A stretch of DNA of 36,824 nucleotides from a virus, in the IMG/VR virus record IMGVR_UViG_3300021373_002090, positions 1 through 36,824 of that record; one strand, 5' to 3'. The notes below the pieces were generated by a model. It had not been told where the DNA came from. It did no database searches and saw nothing but the letters and a program-made list of their open reading frames with translations. A program made the translations under genes and the position numbers. This document shows positions 2,165 through 33,543 of the stretch, in pieces (the stretch's first letter is position 1; each line of letters begins with the position of its first letter).

Positions 2165-2215
2165 ATGAATAACACCATTTTAGCGCGCACCAATACGATG
2201 GGCAACCCGCCATGA
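2165..2215 (+). CDS. 16-residue leader ORF coupled to the replication initiator
   Basis: ATG 2165 follows an AGAGGAG ribosome binding site with seven-base spacing, the best such site in this stretch. The peptide is MNNTILARTNTMGNPP and its stop overlaps the start of the next gene as ATGA at 2212. The initiator gene itself has only a weak site of its own, so translation of this leader may deliver ribosomes to it. The peptide probably has no function beyond coupling. Confidence 0.45.
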   Translation: MNNTILARTNTMGNPP

Positions 2216-3105
2216 GCGGCTTTGTCACGATTGACCGCAGCGTGTTTGGTCACGGCTTTTTTCCCAAGGAAAAAATGTCAGAACGAGAGGCTTGGATATG
2301 GATTATTCAAAACGCCGCTTGGAAGGATACACAGCACCGCGTTGGGGGGAAAATCTTACCCGTGCCGCGCGGTTCCTTTATGACGACGCTGCGAGAGTTG
2401 CAGGCTGTTTTTTGTTGGAAATCAGATACTAAGGTTCGCAACTTTTTGAAGCGATTGGAAGCCGAACGCATGATCGAACGCACCGCGTGCGGTCCCAAAA
2501 ACGCACCAAAAACGCACGTAACTATCTGTAACTATGAAGAATATCAGACTTCGGGCCGCACGAAAAACGCACCAGAAACGCACCGAACGCGCCACGAAAA
2601 ACGCAGTAAAGGAACAAGTATAAACAATAAACAAGATACACCTTACGGTGTATTGGCAAAGCCCGTTTCAAAAGGGACGCGATTGCCTGACGATTGGGCG
2701 CTTCCAAGTCAGTGGGGCCAGTGGGCGGTTGGCGAGGGATGGGAGCCAGATCAGATCCGAACCGAGGCCGACAAGTTCAGAGATTATTGGGTCAGCGTTT
2801 CCGGGCAAAAGGGCGTCAAACGCGATTGGCTTGCGACTTGGCGAAACTGGATGAGAAACAGCAACACACCAAAGGGAAAATTAAATGCGACAGCTAACGA
2901 CAGAAACCGACTCTCACCAGCAAGCGCTAGCCATGAAAACCTTTTTGCGGGGTTCGCTATCGCAGGTCAGCGAGGAACACCGCCCAATGGTGGAGAAGCT
3001 GATGAAGCCAGCGGACAGGGAATGGACTTCGGGCAGAGTGGCGACACTTCTGGCGAGCTACTTCGTTTCCCAGCTTCCGGCGAACATCCAAGCGGCGATT
3101 GCTGA
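2212..3105 (+). CDS. Phage replication initiator (lambda O / DnaT-like replisome organiser)
   Basis: This is a 297-residue protein. Residues about 1-105 form a winged-helix-type domain typical of phage replisome organisers (FVTIDRSVFGH, EREAWIWIIQNAAW, then LRELQAVF and FLKRLEAERMIERT). A polar linker of about 50 residues follows, then a DnaT-like helical segment, LPDDWALPSQWGQWAVG...FRDYWVSVSGQKGVKRDWLATWRNWMR at about 160-222. Such proteins bind iterons and recruit the host helicase loader or helicase. The DNA encoding the linker carries a set of direct repeats, as in lambda O, described as a separate feature. The last 221 bases overlap the next gene in another frame. Naming rests on architecture rather than a database match. 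Confidence 0.75.
   Translation: MSGFVTIDRSVFGHGFFPKEKMSEREAWIWIIQNAAWKDTQHRVGGKILPVPRGSFMTTLRELQAVFCWKSDTKVRNFLKRLEAERMIERTACGPKNAPKTHVTICNYEEYQTSGRTKNAPETHRTRHEKRSKGTSINNKQDTPYGVLAKPVSKGTRLPDDWALPSQWGQWAVGEGWEPDQIRTEADKFRDYWVSVSGQKGVKRDWLATWRNWMRNSNTPKGKLNATANDRNRLSPASASHENLFAGFAIAGQRGTPPNGGEADEASGQGMDFGQSGDTSGELLRFPASGEHPSGDC
2475..2653. other. Putative replication origin: iterons, AT-rich stretch and hairpin inside the initiator gene
   Basis: Direct repeats of core RAACGCACC occur at 2475-2484, 2497-2507, 2508-2518, 2563-2573 and 2574-2584, with degenerate copies at 2585-2593 and 2597-2606. The best copies read AAAAACGCACC. Neighbouring copies are 11 bases apart and the two clusters are 66 bases apart, so they sit on one DNA face. 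An A/T-rich run follows at about 2611-2639, then a perfect hairpin ATACACC-TTAC-GGTGTAT at 2636-2653. Iterons followed by an AT-rich melting region inside an initiator gene is the lambda-type origin layout. Function is inferred from this layout. Confidence 0.65.
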
Positions 3106-3394
3106 GGATTGGCTTGCCGAATTACAATCTTTCCCGGCATGGGCGCTGCAAGAGGCGTGCCGCTGGTGGCTGTCAGCCGACAACCCAGAACGCAAGCGAA
3201 AGCCGCATCCTGGCGACATTGCGGCAAAGGCGCGGCAAGAAACCTTGATTGTGAAATTGGCTAACGAAAGGCTAAACGACCGACTGAAAAGCAAACAGGC
3301 AAAGCCAGACGCGAAAGAAGGCCGAGTGTCTGGGTCGACTGCAAACGAGATTATCCGGCAAGCGGGACTTGCAAAGCGGATTAACAAAAATTGA
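2885..3394 (+). CDS. Probable replication-accessory protein, overlapping the initiator gene
   Basis: This 169-residue protein has central segments REWTSGRVATLLASYF, EDWLAELQSFPAWALQEACRWWL and RKRKPHPGDIAAKA, typical of proteins that follow the initiator in alphaproteobacterial prophages. A helicase-loader (lambda P-like) role would fit the position, but there is no Walker motif to prove it. ATG 2885 follows AAAGGGAAAA; ATG 2933 is an alternative start that would shorten the overlap. With ATG 2885 the first 73 codons overlap the initiator in a different frame. Both proteins look real by composition, so this is a genuine same-strand overlap rather than a start error alone. Confidence 0.75.
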   Translation: MRQLTTETDSHQQALAMKTFLRGSLSQVSEEHRPMVEKLMKPADREWTSGRVATLLASYFVSQLPANIQAAIAEDWLAELQSFPAWALQEACRWWLSADNPERKRKPHPGDIAAKARQETLIVKLANERLNDRLKSKQAKPDAKEGRVSGSTANEIIRQAGLAKRINKN

Positions 3395-3467: not shown

Positions 3468-3992
3468 ATGGCATTCACGCACAACATCAAGACGAGTTAC
3501 GACAAACCGCCAATACCGACGCGAGACCACGATTGGTCAGCGTGGTTTGATTGGGCCAGCCCAGACGATGACCATTTCATCAGCGGGAACGGAGAAACAG
3601 AACAGGCAGCGGTTGCGAATCTCATTGCAAAGGCAGCAAAGGCAAACGAACCGCGCTATCACGGCGAAATTGTTGATATGGCCTTTGAATTTTGGAGCGC
3701 GCCAAAGTGGCAACCGATTGAGACTGCGCCGAAGGATGGGACGGAACTTTTGTTGTGGAATGATACAGGGCTGTCAATTGGGGAATGGCAAGGCTTAGAA
3801 GAGGATCAACTTGATCAACCCGGACATAACCCCGGATGGTACGGAGTAGGCTTGTCAGCTGATCCTATGATGTGGGGCAGGACGGATGAGTTTGGTTTTA
3901 AAGGGACTTGTTTTCTTTACGAAGCTCAAGGCCAACCCACCCGCTGGATGCCCCTGCCTAACGCACCAAAGAAGGGCGGAGCCGATGCGTAA
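3468..3992 (+). CDS. DUF551-containing phage protein
   Basis: In this 174-residue protein the C-terminal half (about 84-170) has the DUF551 signature: WQPIETAPKDGTELLLW near the start of the domain, GEWQ, and a terminal PTRWMPLPNAP. DUF551 is widespread in phages and prophages, with unknown biochemical function. The N-terminal 80 residues are acidic and aromatic, with HDWSAWFDWASPDDDH. It starts at ATG 3468 behind AAAGAAAGG and is the first gene after the early-class promoter at 3414-3441. Its last bases overlap the next start at 3985. Confidence 0.8.
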   Translation: MAFTHNIKTSYDKPPIPTRDHDWSAWFDWASPDDDHFISGNGETEQAAVANLIAKAAKANEPRYHGEIVDMAFEFWSAPKWQPIETAPKDGTELLLWNDTGLSIGEWQGLEEDQLDQPGHNPGWYGVGLSADPMMWGRTDEFGFKGTCFLYEAQGQPTRWMPLPNAPKKGGADA

Positions 3993-4871: not shown

Positions 4872-5629
4872 TGCAAAGCACATGGGACTACACCACCAGC
4901 CCCGTTGCTTGGTCCTACAAGCAGGATCGCAGCTTTGCATCCTTCATCATCGGCCCGGTTGGATCGGGCGCGGAGATCATTGATCAGAATTTTCCCCAAT
5001 ACCAAGGCGTCCGCCTTACCTCGGCCGAAGTTCTCATTCACTACCGTGGGGCCACGCAAAACGTGGACTGCCCCATTGAGGTGATCCCGGCCGCTGGCCG
5101 TTTCTGGATCATCAACCCGTGGATGGAGAACCTAGTGGCGCTGTCCAAGGTGGACGCGGGAACCATAGACATGCAATCCTTAACCTATACCGCGAAGCGA
5201 TGGGGGTTTAATATGGCTAAATCTGTCGAGCCGATTGTTCCGAAAAATATGACCCTAAACGAGGTTATTGCCTACGATGGGCTGCGCAAAGCTCAGTTCT
5301 TAGCGCATCAAACGGCAAGTAAGGCCGGATGGTATAAAAACCCAGAGACGGGCGAAAATATTCAGCGCAATTTTGGCGAAGTTGTGGCGCTTATGCATTC
5401 TGAACTTTCAGAGGCGCTAGAGGCCGACCGCAAAGGGCTTTTTGATGACAAGCTGCCCCATAGGGACGGTCGGGAGGTTGAGTTTGCAGATTGTATCATT
5501 CGCATTCTTGATACCGCCGATGCGCTAGGCCTTGATTTAGCTGGAGCGTTCATTGAAAAAAACAGATTTAACAAAACGCGTTCTGATCACAAAATTGAAA
5601 ATCGCGCAAAAGGAGGTAAAAAATATTGA
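4871..5629 (+). CDS. MazG-like nucleotide pyrophosphohydrolase domain with an unrelated N-terminal extension
   Basis: This 252-residue protein has a MazG-like C-terminal region (about 115-245): ELSEALEA supplies Exx[12 protein letters not shown] supplies ExxD, and a basic tail follows with K[11 protein letters not shown]. MazG-type enzymes hydrolyse nucleoside triphosphates to monophosphates; phage copies may adjust nucleotide or alarmone pools. The first 114 residues are unlike this domain. They include [13 protein letters not shown], which resembles the P-loop start of phage terminases but lacks the Lys. They are also encoded by visibly more GC-rich, C/G-ending codons (about 4871-5200). An internal ATG at 5213, preceded by GGGGG, could start a separate MazG protein. 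This suggests a fusion or mosaic insertion. Confidence 0.75.
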
Positions 5630-9280: not shown

Positions 9281-10471
9281 ATGAAAAATAAAGTTCCCGA
9301 CTATAAACAAGCATTAGTGGCCGATCTCATTCCATACGCGCGCAACAGCCGCACGCATTCGGATGCACAGATTTCAAAGATTGCAGCGTCGATTAAAGAG
9401 TTCGGCTTTCTTAATCCAGTTATTACAGATGGGCAAAACGGCATCATAGCGGGTCATGGGCGCGTGCAGGCCGCGCAACGGATCGGAATGGACGAAGTGC
9501 CAACGCTCGAAGCCGCGCACTTGTCAGAAGCCCAGAAGCGCGCTTACATCATCGCAGACAACCGCCTGGCGCTTGATGCGGGTTGGGACGATGAAATGCT
9601 GCGCGTTGAGTTCATGGATCTGGAAGCCGCTGATTTTGACTTATCGCTCACGGGCTTTGAATTGGACGAAATTTCGGCACTTACAGCGAACGAACCTGCC
9701 GAAGGGCTTACCGATGAAGACGCAGTGCCGGAAGCGCCAGAAGACCCCGTGACGGTTGAAGGCGATGTGTGGTTGCTTGGGCGTCATCGTTTGATGTGCG
9801 GGGATAGCACCAGCATCGATGCGGTTGAAAAGCTGATGGATGGAATGAAGCCAAACGCGGTATTTACTGATCCGCCTTATGGAATTGGCCTTGACAAAGA
9901 AGGGCAGAAACTTGGCAAAAGTCAAGCATATGGCGCAGTATTAAACGACCATAGCGGGGAGGTGGCAAAAGACGCTTTTGCTTTGGCAGTTTCTATGCGT
10001 GTTCCAGAATTGTATTTTTGGGGGGCAAATCATTATTCGTCATGCTTGCCGGATTCTTCGTGTTGGATAGTTTGGGACAAGCAAGGCGGAAAGTCGGTCA
10101 CCTATGCAGATTGTGAACTTTGCTACACCAACATTGAAAAGCCTGTCCGAATGTTTACCCATATTTGGGATGGTTTTCGTCGTGATACTGAAAAAGGCGA
10201 AAAAAGAGTTCACGCTAACCAGAAGCCGGTCGGTCTGTTTGTTGATATTTTTTCAAAGTTCAATATGGGCCAGGTCGTCTTTGACATGTTTGGCGGTTCG
10301 GGTTCAACGCTGATGGCCGCTGAGAAAACAGATCGCGTGTGTTATATGGCTGAATTAGATGCGCGTTATTGCGACGTGATAATCAAACGCTGGCAAGCCT
10401 TCACAGGCCAAGAGGCAACGCACGAAGCCAGCGGCAAAACCTATGCGGAGTTAGGCAATGGCAGGACGTAA
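9281..10471 (+). CDS. ParB-like domain fused to DNA adenine methyltransferase
   Basis: This is a 396-residue fusion. Residues about 10-100 form a ParB/Srx-type domain (RNSRTHSDAQISKIAASI, GIIAGHGRVQAA, ADNRLAL). Residues about 155-390 form a beta-class methyltransferase with TDPPYG at 196-201 and FGGSGSTLMAAEK near 335. DPPY favours N6-adenine methylation. This fusion is common beside terminase genes in alphaproteobacterial phages and prophages, where it may mark DNA for packaging or protect it. ATG 9281 follows TAAGGG. It overlaps the terminase small subunit by 14 bases. It is the second methyltransferase of this genome. Confidence 0.9.
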   Translation: MKNKVPDYKQALVADLIPYARNSRTHSDAQISKIAASIKEFGFLNPVITDGQNGIIAGHGRVQAAQRIGMDEVPTLEAAHLSEAQKRAYIIADNRLALDAGWDDEMLRVEFMDLEAADFDLSLTGFELDEISALTANEPAEGLTDEDAVPEAPEDPVTVEGDVWLLGRHRLMCGDSTSIDAVEKLMDGMKPNAVFTDPPYGIGLDKEGQKLGKSQAYGAVLNDHSGEVAKDAFALAVSMRVPELYFWGANHYSSCLPDSSCWIVWDKQGGKSVTYADCELCYTNIEKPVRMFTHIWDGFRRDTEKGEKRVHANQKPVGLFVDIFSKFNMGQVVFDMFGGSGSTLMAAEKTDRVCYMAELDARYCDVIIKRWQAFTGQEATHEASGKTYAELGNGRT

Positions 10472-21375: not shown

Positions 21376-23163
21376 ATGAGCTTTAGTTATTCAGGTGGAG
21401 TTATTACGCAAACCGGAACTGATACTGACTTGTCCGGGCTGTCTGGTTTAACTGGTGTCACAGTTACTAGCTACTCTTCGCGATACGAAATCTATGACAT
21501 TGGAACCAATCGGCTGGACATTGAGGGTGATTTAACGATTAACCCTGAAAATAATATGTTAATCAGCAATGCACCAACCGCAGTAATACCAAACATGGCT
21601 GTCAATGTGAGGGCAAATGCAACGCTGACTTTAGGCGTGAAAACAACAGTAGGCAGCGCCGTTAAATACACCACAGGCACTGCCATGATTTTGACAGAGC
21701 CGGGATCGTTAAATAATAACGGAAGTTTACATGTGGAATCTGACGGAACTTTAGAAGCGTTTGGCGCAACAATTCAGTTGGCAGGCCCGACTCGTGTTCG
21801 CAGTGGCGCATTTTTTACTTGTGAAGATTTGACGCTTGTTAATTGTAGAAACAACGCCACCCAATTTCGTATCGAAGCCATGACCTCTACAAACACAGCA
21901 AGAGTTTCTGTCACAGAAAATGGAATGACACTTAACGGTGATGGCTCCAACGACTCATGTCGTCTAACTACAACTGGCCAAGTGGCATTTCCTAGCGATG
22001 CTTTTGTGTTTAATTTTGTCCGAGCGCAATACCAACCTGCCGCAAGTGGCTACCCTCCACAGGTGTTTTTAAATTTTGACAACGGCAATAATGTAGATTC
22101 TGCTGACTTCGCGTATGCAGGAAGTGGCGGTGGCAATGGTACTACATTTAATGGAAACCTCGCAGATTTTAGAAACGTTGCTAAGCGTTTGCGATACACC
22201 AACGCCAACAAGAAAGGTGGATTTTGCAAAACCACTAAAAACGTCAACTTTGCTTTACAAGATTCCGAAGGTGCTGGACTTTCAACAGTTTCATATTATG
22301 CCGTAGACGTTGATAACGGTAGCAGGATAAATTTTAACAGCTTTGATTCTACTGCTGACATTGTGTATTCTGGCCAAAATGCAGGACCAACCTTGGCCAT
22401 CACTGCAACTGTTGAATTTATGGCAGGTCGAAACACAACTAGATTTATCGACTCTAGGACCAACGCTGACGATACAATCCTCTTTCGTTTTATCAGCTAC
22501 ACAACTAACATCACATCAACGAGTCCAGTATTAATTGGGTTGAAAGATTTGGATGCTGTGGTGGTTAATGCAACAGATGCACTGATCTCAGAATCCAACC
22601 GTTCCACCGTTGATGCTTATACTGAGCTTGAGACATCAGCAAAGTTCTATGATCGCGCCAAGTCTTACTTGACGGCTAACTACGCTGGCGAGGCTGCAAC
22701 CTTAGTTACACGATCAGGAAACGCGATTGACGCTGGTGCGTTTGACATTGTGATTGATGCCACTGCCGCCAGCGCTTTTGCATTGACTGGCAATACCATT
22801 ACTATCAAAGCATCTGAATTTGTTGGTGACATTACAACTACTGGTGCTATCACGCTTTCTAACGGCGCAACTTTCATCGGTAGCTTTACCGATAGCATCG
22901 GCACCACATCTATCGCAACACTCACTCTAACAGGTCTACAGGCAAACAGCGAAGTTCGTGTATTTGATGCAGGAACTACAACAGAACTTGCGGGCGTTGA
23001 AAACAGTGGCACAACCTTTACTGCTAACATCTCAGCTTCAAGTGTGGACATTGTTGTTCATTCCCTTGGGTACGAATACCAAAAGATTGAAGGCGCTGAC
23101 ACGTCGGCCAATCTAACGCTGCCAATACAACAGCGAGTGGATCGAAATTACAGGAACCCGTGA
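21376..23163 (+). CDS. Large beta-helix-like virion protein, candidate tailspike/receptor-binding protein (595 residues)
   Basis: ATG 21376 follows AAGGACAG. The sequence has many short Asn/Thr/Gly-rich strands (LDIEGDLTINPENNMLISN, ANATLTLGVKTTVG, GSLHVESDGTLEAFGATIQLAG), as in parallel beta-helix spikes. A middle section follows with FRNVAKRLRYTNANKKGGFC and a C-terminal Ig-like part, VRVFDAGTTTELAGV, ending RVDRNYRNP. Codon use is visibly more A/T-rich than its neighbours, as expected for a recently exchanged host-range gene. The active site, if any, is not evident. The terminal R-N-Y motif shared with the upstream protein may be an attachment or assembly element. Confidence 0.65.
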   Translation: MSFSYSGGVITQTGTDTDLSGLSGLTGVTVTSYSSRYEIYDIGTNRLDIEGDLTINPENNMLISNAPTAVIPNMAVNVRANATLTLGVKTTVGSAVKYTTGTAMILTEPGSLNNNGSLHVESDGTLEAFGATIQLAGPTRVRSGAFFTCEDLTLVNCRNNATQFRIEAMTSTNTARVSVTENGMTLNGDGSNDSCRLTTTGQVAFPSDAFVFNFVRAQYQPAASGYPPQVFLNFDNGNNVDSADFAYAGSGGGNGTTFNGNLADFRNVAKRLRYTNANKKGGFCKTTKNVNFALQDSEGAGLSTVSYYAVDVDNGSRINFNSFDSTADIVYSGQNAGPTLAITATVEFMAGRNTTRFIDSRTNADDTILFRFISYTTNITSTSPVLIGLKDLDAVVVNATDALISESNRSTVDAYTELETSAKFYDRAKSYLTANYAGEAATLVTRSGNAIDAGAFDIVIDATAASAFALTGNTITIKASEFVGDITTTGAITLSNGATFIGSFTDSIGTTSIATLTLTGLQANSEVRVFDAGTTTELAGVENSGTTFTANISASSVDIVVHSLGYEYQKIEGADTSANLTLPIQQRVDRNYRNP

Positions 23164-33348: not shown

Positions 33349-33543
33349 TCATAAGGTAGACCACGACACCGACCGCGTACCCGACCGCGCACCCGACACC
33401 GACCGCGACCGCGTACCCGACCGCGACAGCGGTCGCGACCGCGACCGCGTACCCGACCGCGACCGCGACAGCGACCGCGACCGCGACCGCGACAGCGACC
33501 ACGACCACGACCACCGTGCGCCAACTGCAATTGCCGCAATCAT
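33349..33543 (-). CDS. Low-complexity repeat ORF ending the leftward operon
   Basis: On the minus strand ATG 33543 overlaps the preceding stop (ATGA). This frame reads MIAAIAVGARWSWS and then Ser-Arg repeats to a stop at 33349. Two bases out of phase, a second frame (33514 to 33323) reads Val/Ala repeats with GYAVAV units and ends VYLMIKGNYILN. The hydrophobic MIAAIAVGA start fits the Val/Ala frame far better than the Ser-Arg one, so an indel or slippage in the repeat is likely. The true product may be a small membrane protein. The function is unknown. Confidence 0.4.
   Translation of the reverse strand: MIAAIAVGARWSWSWSLSRSRSRSLSRSRSGTRSRSRPLSRSGTRSRSVSGARSGTRSVSWSTL
33361..33513. repeat. 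Hexanucleotide-based low-complexity repeat (GACCGC units)
   Basis: About 150 bases are composed mainly of GACCGC with variants GACAGC, GTACCC and GACCAC. All frames on the minus strand and one on the plus strand remain open, giving Asp-Arg, Ser-Arg, Arg-Gly or Ala-Val dipeptide arrays. Such tracts change length readily by slippage. Confidence 0.9.

Follow-up and report, generated by a model that had tools for sequence, protein, structure and literature searches.

The window analysed here, a viral contig of 36,824 nt, very probably carries a replication origin inside the gene for its replication initiator (probability about 0.87). The candidate origin spans positions 2464–2653, where the winged helix of the initiator would bind an array of iterons, an adjoining A-rich stretch would open, and the C-terminal domain of the protein would bring in the helicase machinery. 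On sequence comparison, the arrangement is supported as an iteron origin embedded in a gene in the manner of SPP1 oriL, with origin activity at this place as the probable function. The first-pass annotation had proposed an iteron origin within the initiator gene, and that proposal is now supported by homology of the initiator to SPP1 gp38, by an 11-bp repeat period at the same place across the family, by the loss of the repeats in a relative with an unrelated N-terminal domain (L003), and by the A-rich stretch. The features are as follows.

2212–3105, plus strand: replication initiator gene, 297 aa, with an N-terminal winged helix, a low-complexity linker and a C-terminal domain (PHROGs, tblastn, AlphaFold2)
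2464–2472, plus strand: weak, outlying iteron GAACGCATG from a PWM pair scan, of low confidence and uncounted in the first-pass annotation
2476–2484, plus strand: iteron GAACGCACC, an exact RAACGCACC, coding E-R-T
2499–2518, plus strand: tandem pair AAACGCACC (2499) and AAACGCACG (2510, one mismatch), 11 bp apart, coding N-A-P and K-T-H in the beta-wing-coding part
2565–2584, plus strand: second tandem pair, AAACGCACC twice (2565 and 2576), 11 bp apart, coding N-A-P and E-T-H
2585–2607, plus strand: degenerate iterons GAACGCGCC (2585–2593) and AAACGCAGT (2599–2607) from a site-matrix scan
2604–2636, plus strand: A-rich stretch, 73% A+T and 61% A, a probable DNA unwinding element
2636–2653, no strand assigned: perfect hairpin with a 7-bp stem, ATACACC-TTAC-GGTGTAT, bordering the A-rich stretch on its 3' side
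2885–3394, plus strand: downstream ORF, 169 aa, overlapping the 3' end of the initiator gene at the place of SPP1 gene 39, with no family match

By its sequence matches, the initiator is of the gp38 (DnaD-like) type, its N-terminal domain being homologous to SPP1 gp38. Residues 1–142 matched phrog_2514 ('DnaD-like helicase loader', E = 3.8e-20), the protein also matched phrog_186 (E = 2.9e-9), and tblastn retrieved SPP1 gene 38 (36% over residues 3–135, 2e-14) among other phage initiators. Residues 153–225 matched phrog_3992 ('primosomal protein', E = 4.8e-17). The AlphaFold2 model of residues 1–129 (pLDDT 85) is a winged helix with helices at residues 60–67 and 72–84, strands at 88–93 and 100–105 and a further helix at 108–112. 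When the first iteron cluster (codons 89–102) was set against these modelled strands, it fell on them, and it therefore codes the predicted wing. Pfam held no family for the initiator or its C-terminal domain, and a PDB sequence search with the initiator returned nothing convincing, with winged-helix regulators at marginal E-values only. Similarly, a fold search returned many winged-helix regulators (MarR, HxlR and PadR type), none below 1e-3, and the top fold match of the C-terminal domain, the DnaT CTD (2ru8), was non-significant (E = 3, probability 0.08). Of the neighbouring ORFs, 2885–3394 and 3468–3992 were compared with PHROGs; neither had a match, and among them no gene for a helicase or a loader could be identified. 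From its position, ORF 2885–3394 would belong to the replication module.

The five good and two degenerate copies of RAACGCACC that had been reported in the initiator gene were all recovered, at 2476–2607. The motif is exact at 2476, 2499, 2565 and 2576 on the plus strand, and the copy at 2510 has one mismatch. The reported spacings, 11 bp in tandem and 66 bp between the main pairs (2499/2510 versus 2565/2576), agreed with the coordinates; the other gaps in the array are 12, 23, 9 and 14 bp. Two finer statements about the array stood only in part. The sites had been placed on one side of the helix, which holds for neighbouring copies, but between the clusters only loosely, 66 bp being 6.3 turns at 10.5 bp/turn; with this figure, and with a cluster separation of 78 bp in the relative L028, a constant helical face was dropped as a description. 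The repeats had also been assigned to the linker-coding part, which is true of the second cluster (codons 118–132) but not of the wing-coding first.

The array is alone of its kind in this genome. The two ends of the contig (1–164 and 36661–36824) overlap by 164 nt, 162 of them identical, and the contig is thus probably a complete, circularly mapping genome with a unit of 36,660 bp; no nearest phage was found at the DNA level. A site-matrix scan of the complete genome found no second, oriR-like iteron cluster, and the single exact RAACGCACC elsewhere lies at 22735 on the minus strand. More than three good sites per 110 bp occurred in 0 of 200 Markov genomes. GC skew, suggested earlier as an origin marker, did not serve: it is one-directional, and the cumulative skew rises almost throughout and marks no origin. 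Other repeats and genes were seen along the genome. Tandem repeats of 12 and 36 bp run across the contig junction (78–290 and 36738–36822) and read as a GSVGGNVKGSV-like peptide, and a 12/18/36-bp tandem array of GACCGCGACCGC units at 33359–33512 is open in several frames. DNA methyltransferase-like genes lie at 799–1566 (matching N6_N4_Mtase in Pfam) and at 9281–10471 (by eye a fusion of a ParB domain and a methyltransferase).

An A/T-rich run followed by a perfect hairpin had been described 3' of the repeats, and both are there, at 2604–2636 and 2636–2653. Only 0.8% of the 33-bp segments of the genome are as A+T-rich as 2604–2636, and 0.02% are as A-rich. Most of the relatives shown likewise have an A-rich stretch after the array. 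In the mechanism that we propose, the N-terminal winged helix would bind AACGCACC-type repeats about one helical turn apart to form a nucleoprotein complex, and this complex would strain and open the A-rich stretch, which presumably melts as an unwinding element. The C-terminal domain would then recruit the replicative helicase machinery (compare gp38 with gp39/gp40 at SPP1 oriL). We infer binding, melting, helicase recruitment and the start of replication alike to take place within 2464–2653.

The repeat layout is a property of the family. A set of 44 gp38-type initiators of at least 300 nt, including the focal gene, was assembled from viral contigs, bacterial genomes, plasmids and named phages, and 44 ORFs from the same loci served as controls; the score was the number of identities in a 22-bp stretch at lag 11. 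A score of at least 17/22 was reached by 29 of 44 initiators and by 0 of 44 control ORFs (best control, 14). When scores at lags 11, 22, 23 and 34 were compared with synonymous shuffles (W = 22), 30/44 initiators gave p ≤ 0.01, mostly at codons 110–130. The 14/44 that missed this level included some with 12-bp spacing and some with short arrays; in several relatives the spacing is 12 bp, or 11 and 12 bp in alternation. The unit itself is RGACGCASC in L004, CGACGCGCGAA in L028, CAGCCAACAGA in L041, CGGGACAGCAG in L005, L101 and Sulfitobacter phage pCB2047-A, and AAAAGACACGA-like in SPP1. The first-pass annotation had expected relatives to keep the DNA repeats while the encoded residues change. 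What is kept is the spacing of ~11 bp and the place around codons ~110–130, but the repeat sequence varies between phages. In L003, whose C-terminal half is 85–87% identical to that of the focal protein but whose N-terminal domain is unrelated, the linker is free of iterons, and the 5.3 kb of the locus hold just one site, with one mismatch. The repeats are found where the gp38-type DNA-binding domain is, which is what one would expect of its binding sites. At another locus, in a prophage-like region of Sinorhizobium meliloti pSymB (L099), an annotated NusG-family gene (5181–5330), possibly a phage antiterminator, lies near the gp38-type initiator.

A hairpin at the place of 2636–2653 also occurs in relatives. 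Some of these have just the C-terminal half in common with the focal protein (L009–L020), others just the N-terminal domain (L029, L062, L085, L100, L102, L109). Other stems stand at the same place in relatives (GATAC/GTATC, GAAGC/GCTTC, GAACC/GGTTC, GGTAC/GTACC and ATACTCC/GGAGTAT), these examples being chosen for Watson-Crick pairing, so that their pair counts are illustrative and the triplet test that follows is the unbiased one. In this unselected test with GAAGNNNCTAACGNNNCTTC, complementary triplets were found in 16 of 80 viral-contig matches listed, where 1.25 were expected, and its TAAA version gave 6/81 among matches listed; since some contigs are related, not every locus in these hairpin counts is an independent case. 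Among the matches listed, replication/primosomal PHROGs accounted for 10 of 16 proteins with a paired hairpin versus 1 of 10 with an unpaired one, and this lone unpaired replication match (L122) has a single mismatch. Sense TNNC loops made up 14/24 of the tetraloop hairpins (stem at least 6) in 79 initiator genes versus 9/118 in flanking DNA, in a count whose filter excluded most TAAA loops. A fixed reading phase was dropped as evidence for the hairpin, since unpaired pattern hits share the phase (86/97). A covarying hairpin with a restricted tetraloop was seen in the linker-coding part of unrelated initiators at 2636–2653 of the focal genome and in L003, L004, L009–L020, L029, L036, L062, L085, L086, L100, L102, L109, L117, L125, L151, L161, L166, L181, L182, L253, L280 and L311. 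Just before the hairpin, many linkers of non-gp38 initiators (L009–L013, L018, L019, L117, L161, L166, L194, L253) have 6-bp tandem repeats that read EPEPEP, ETETET, SPSPSP, SLSLSL or RPDPTRPDPT; possibly they belong, as DNA elements, to origins of other types.

We tentatively regard it as just short of an even chance that the hairpin is a general element of phage initiator genes. Such an element would have a free but compensating stem and a restricted tetraloop (sense TNNC/TAAA, antisense GNNA/TTTA), would sit at the junction of the DNA-binding and C-terminal domains, and would be spread over unrelated families in phages of Alphaproteobacteria, Vibrio, Bacteroides and other hosts. Its working form may be RNA, or else single-stranded DNA where the melted region ends; the minus-strand loops, GNNA or TTTA, count as stable DNA tetraloops. 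In the open-access literature searched, no description of a linker hairpin in phage initiator genes was found. The hairpin recurs alongside initiator genes of this sort; that it has a part in origin function is no more than a guess.

The hairpin, as distinct from the iterons, might instead have its function outside the origin, either as an antisense intrinsic terminator or as an mRNA hairpin for antitermination or translation pausing, which we hold to be an appreciable possibility at less than even odds. Read on the minus strand, the stem runs into a T-rich tail, and a terminator scan flags the hairpin; however, the number of terminator-like hits in the region, 5, was close to the mean of 4.0 after shuffling, the stems in relatives are often A/T-rich and their T tails are not uniform. 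As for mRNA, the RNA folding of the hairpin is strong, with energies of the two strands that are not decisive, and the plus-strand loops, TNAC/TAAA, presumably resemble U-turn tetraloops, but Rfam gave no match on the whole window or on 2400–2800. A small UNCG hairpin is used by LoaP, a NusG-type antiterminator (PMC12691694), a precedent for the mRNA function.

For the iterons, it is improbable that they are initiator sites for autoregulation (a roadblock or operator in the gene) or for copy-number control while replication starts elsewhere. Plasmid initiator-binding repeats can serve both replication and regulation, and protein bound at these sites, which come after the start codon, could obstruct transcription. 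Against this, the complete genome has one cluster only, the experimentally supported homolog has its origin at this place, and the A-rich stretch adjoining the array recurs in relatives. The autoregulatory and origin roles are not mutually exclusive.

Selection acts on the DNA, because one and the same 9-mer occurs in all three reading frames (coding ERT, NAP and KTH), a pattern that a peptide repeat cannot yield. When the protein was held fixed and codons were redrawn from genome usage, some 7-mer occurred at least 5 times in 5e-5 of the redraws, and some 8-mer at least 4 times in 0.00175. With a wider stretch (W = 33), 0 of 100 synonymous shuffles reached the score of the focal gene, and lag 11 was the top lag that is not a multiple of 3 in the focal gene and in many relatives. 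At W = 22 and lags 11, 22, 23 and 34 the focal gene gave only p = 0.015, because few of its copies are adjacent. A by-product of protein-level selection on the linker (K-N-A-P-x-T-H), whose repetitive and basic character is plain to see and common among linkers of DNA-binding proteins, is highly unlikely and strongly disfavoured by the shuffles and the control-ORF comparison: the unit read in three frames is identical DNA, its periods of 11, 22 and 23 bp are not multiples of 3 and are destroyed by synonymous shuffling, and the first cluster codes what is modelled as a structured wing and not a linker.

For most sequenced phages, no replication origin has been mapped. Since some 30 of 44 initiators have the same repeat layout with another repeat sequence, the start site becomes readable from the gene: a DNA period of ~11 bp in all three frames just after the wing, then an A-rich stretch. 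For dozens of phages from several bacterial phyla, this rule predicts where the origin lies, what its repeat unit is and which DNA-binding domain goes with it. Natural pairs such as the focal phage and L004, with a concerted A-to-G difference in the repeats, are suited to studying how an initiator and its sites co-evolve within one DNA, and the covarying hairpin, should it prove functional, would add another element to the origin. As far as the open-access literature searched shows, what is new is the 11-bp rule across the family and the hairpin with its covarying stem; gene-embedded phage origins as such were already known from SPP1 and lambda.

Three known systems bear comparison. The 'primosomal protein' initiators (phrog_3992, phrog_1408) share the C-terminal domain, up to the level of identity given above for L003, and the hairpin in the linker, but their N-terminal domain is unrelated and the 11-bp RAACGCACC iterons are missing. 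The first-pass annotation had likened the origin to that in lambda gene O. Lambdoid O genes have iterons and an AT-rich tract in mid-gene, the iterons being imperfect inverted repeats of ~19 bp (PMC7466680). The likeness holds for this layout; however, the focal repeats are directional cores of ~9 bp at 11 bp, no homology to O was detected, and no O-protein family was among the Pfam or PHROGs matches of the initiator. The closest homologous model is instead SPP1 oriL, where gp38, the origin-binding protein, binds direct repeats inside its own gene 38. SPP1 differs in its repeat sequence, in an unrelated C-terminal half, in having oriR and recognised gp39/gp40 genes next door, and in lacking the focal hairpin at the corresponding place. 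In both phages, by contrast, the N-terminal domain is homologous, DNA repeats of ~11 bp occupy the same codons immediately past the wing, an A-rich stretch lies directly downstream of them, and the next gene overlaps the 3' end of the initiator gene.
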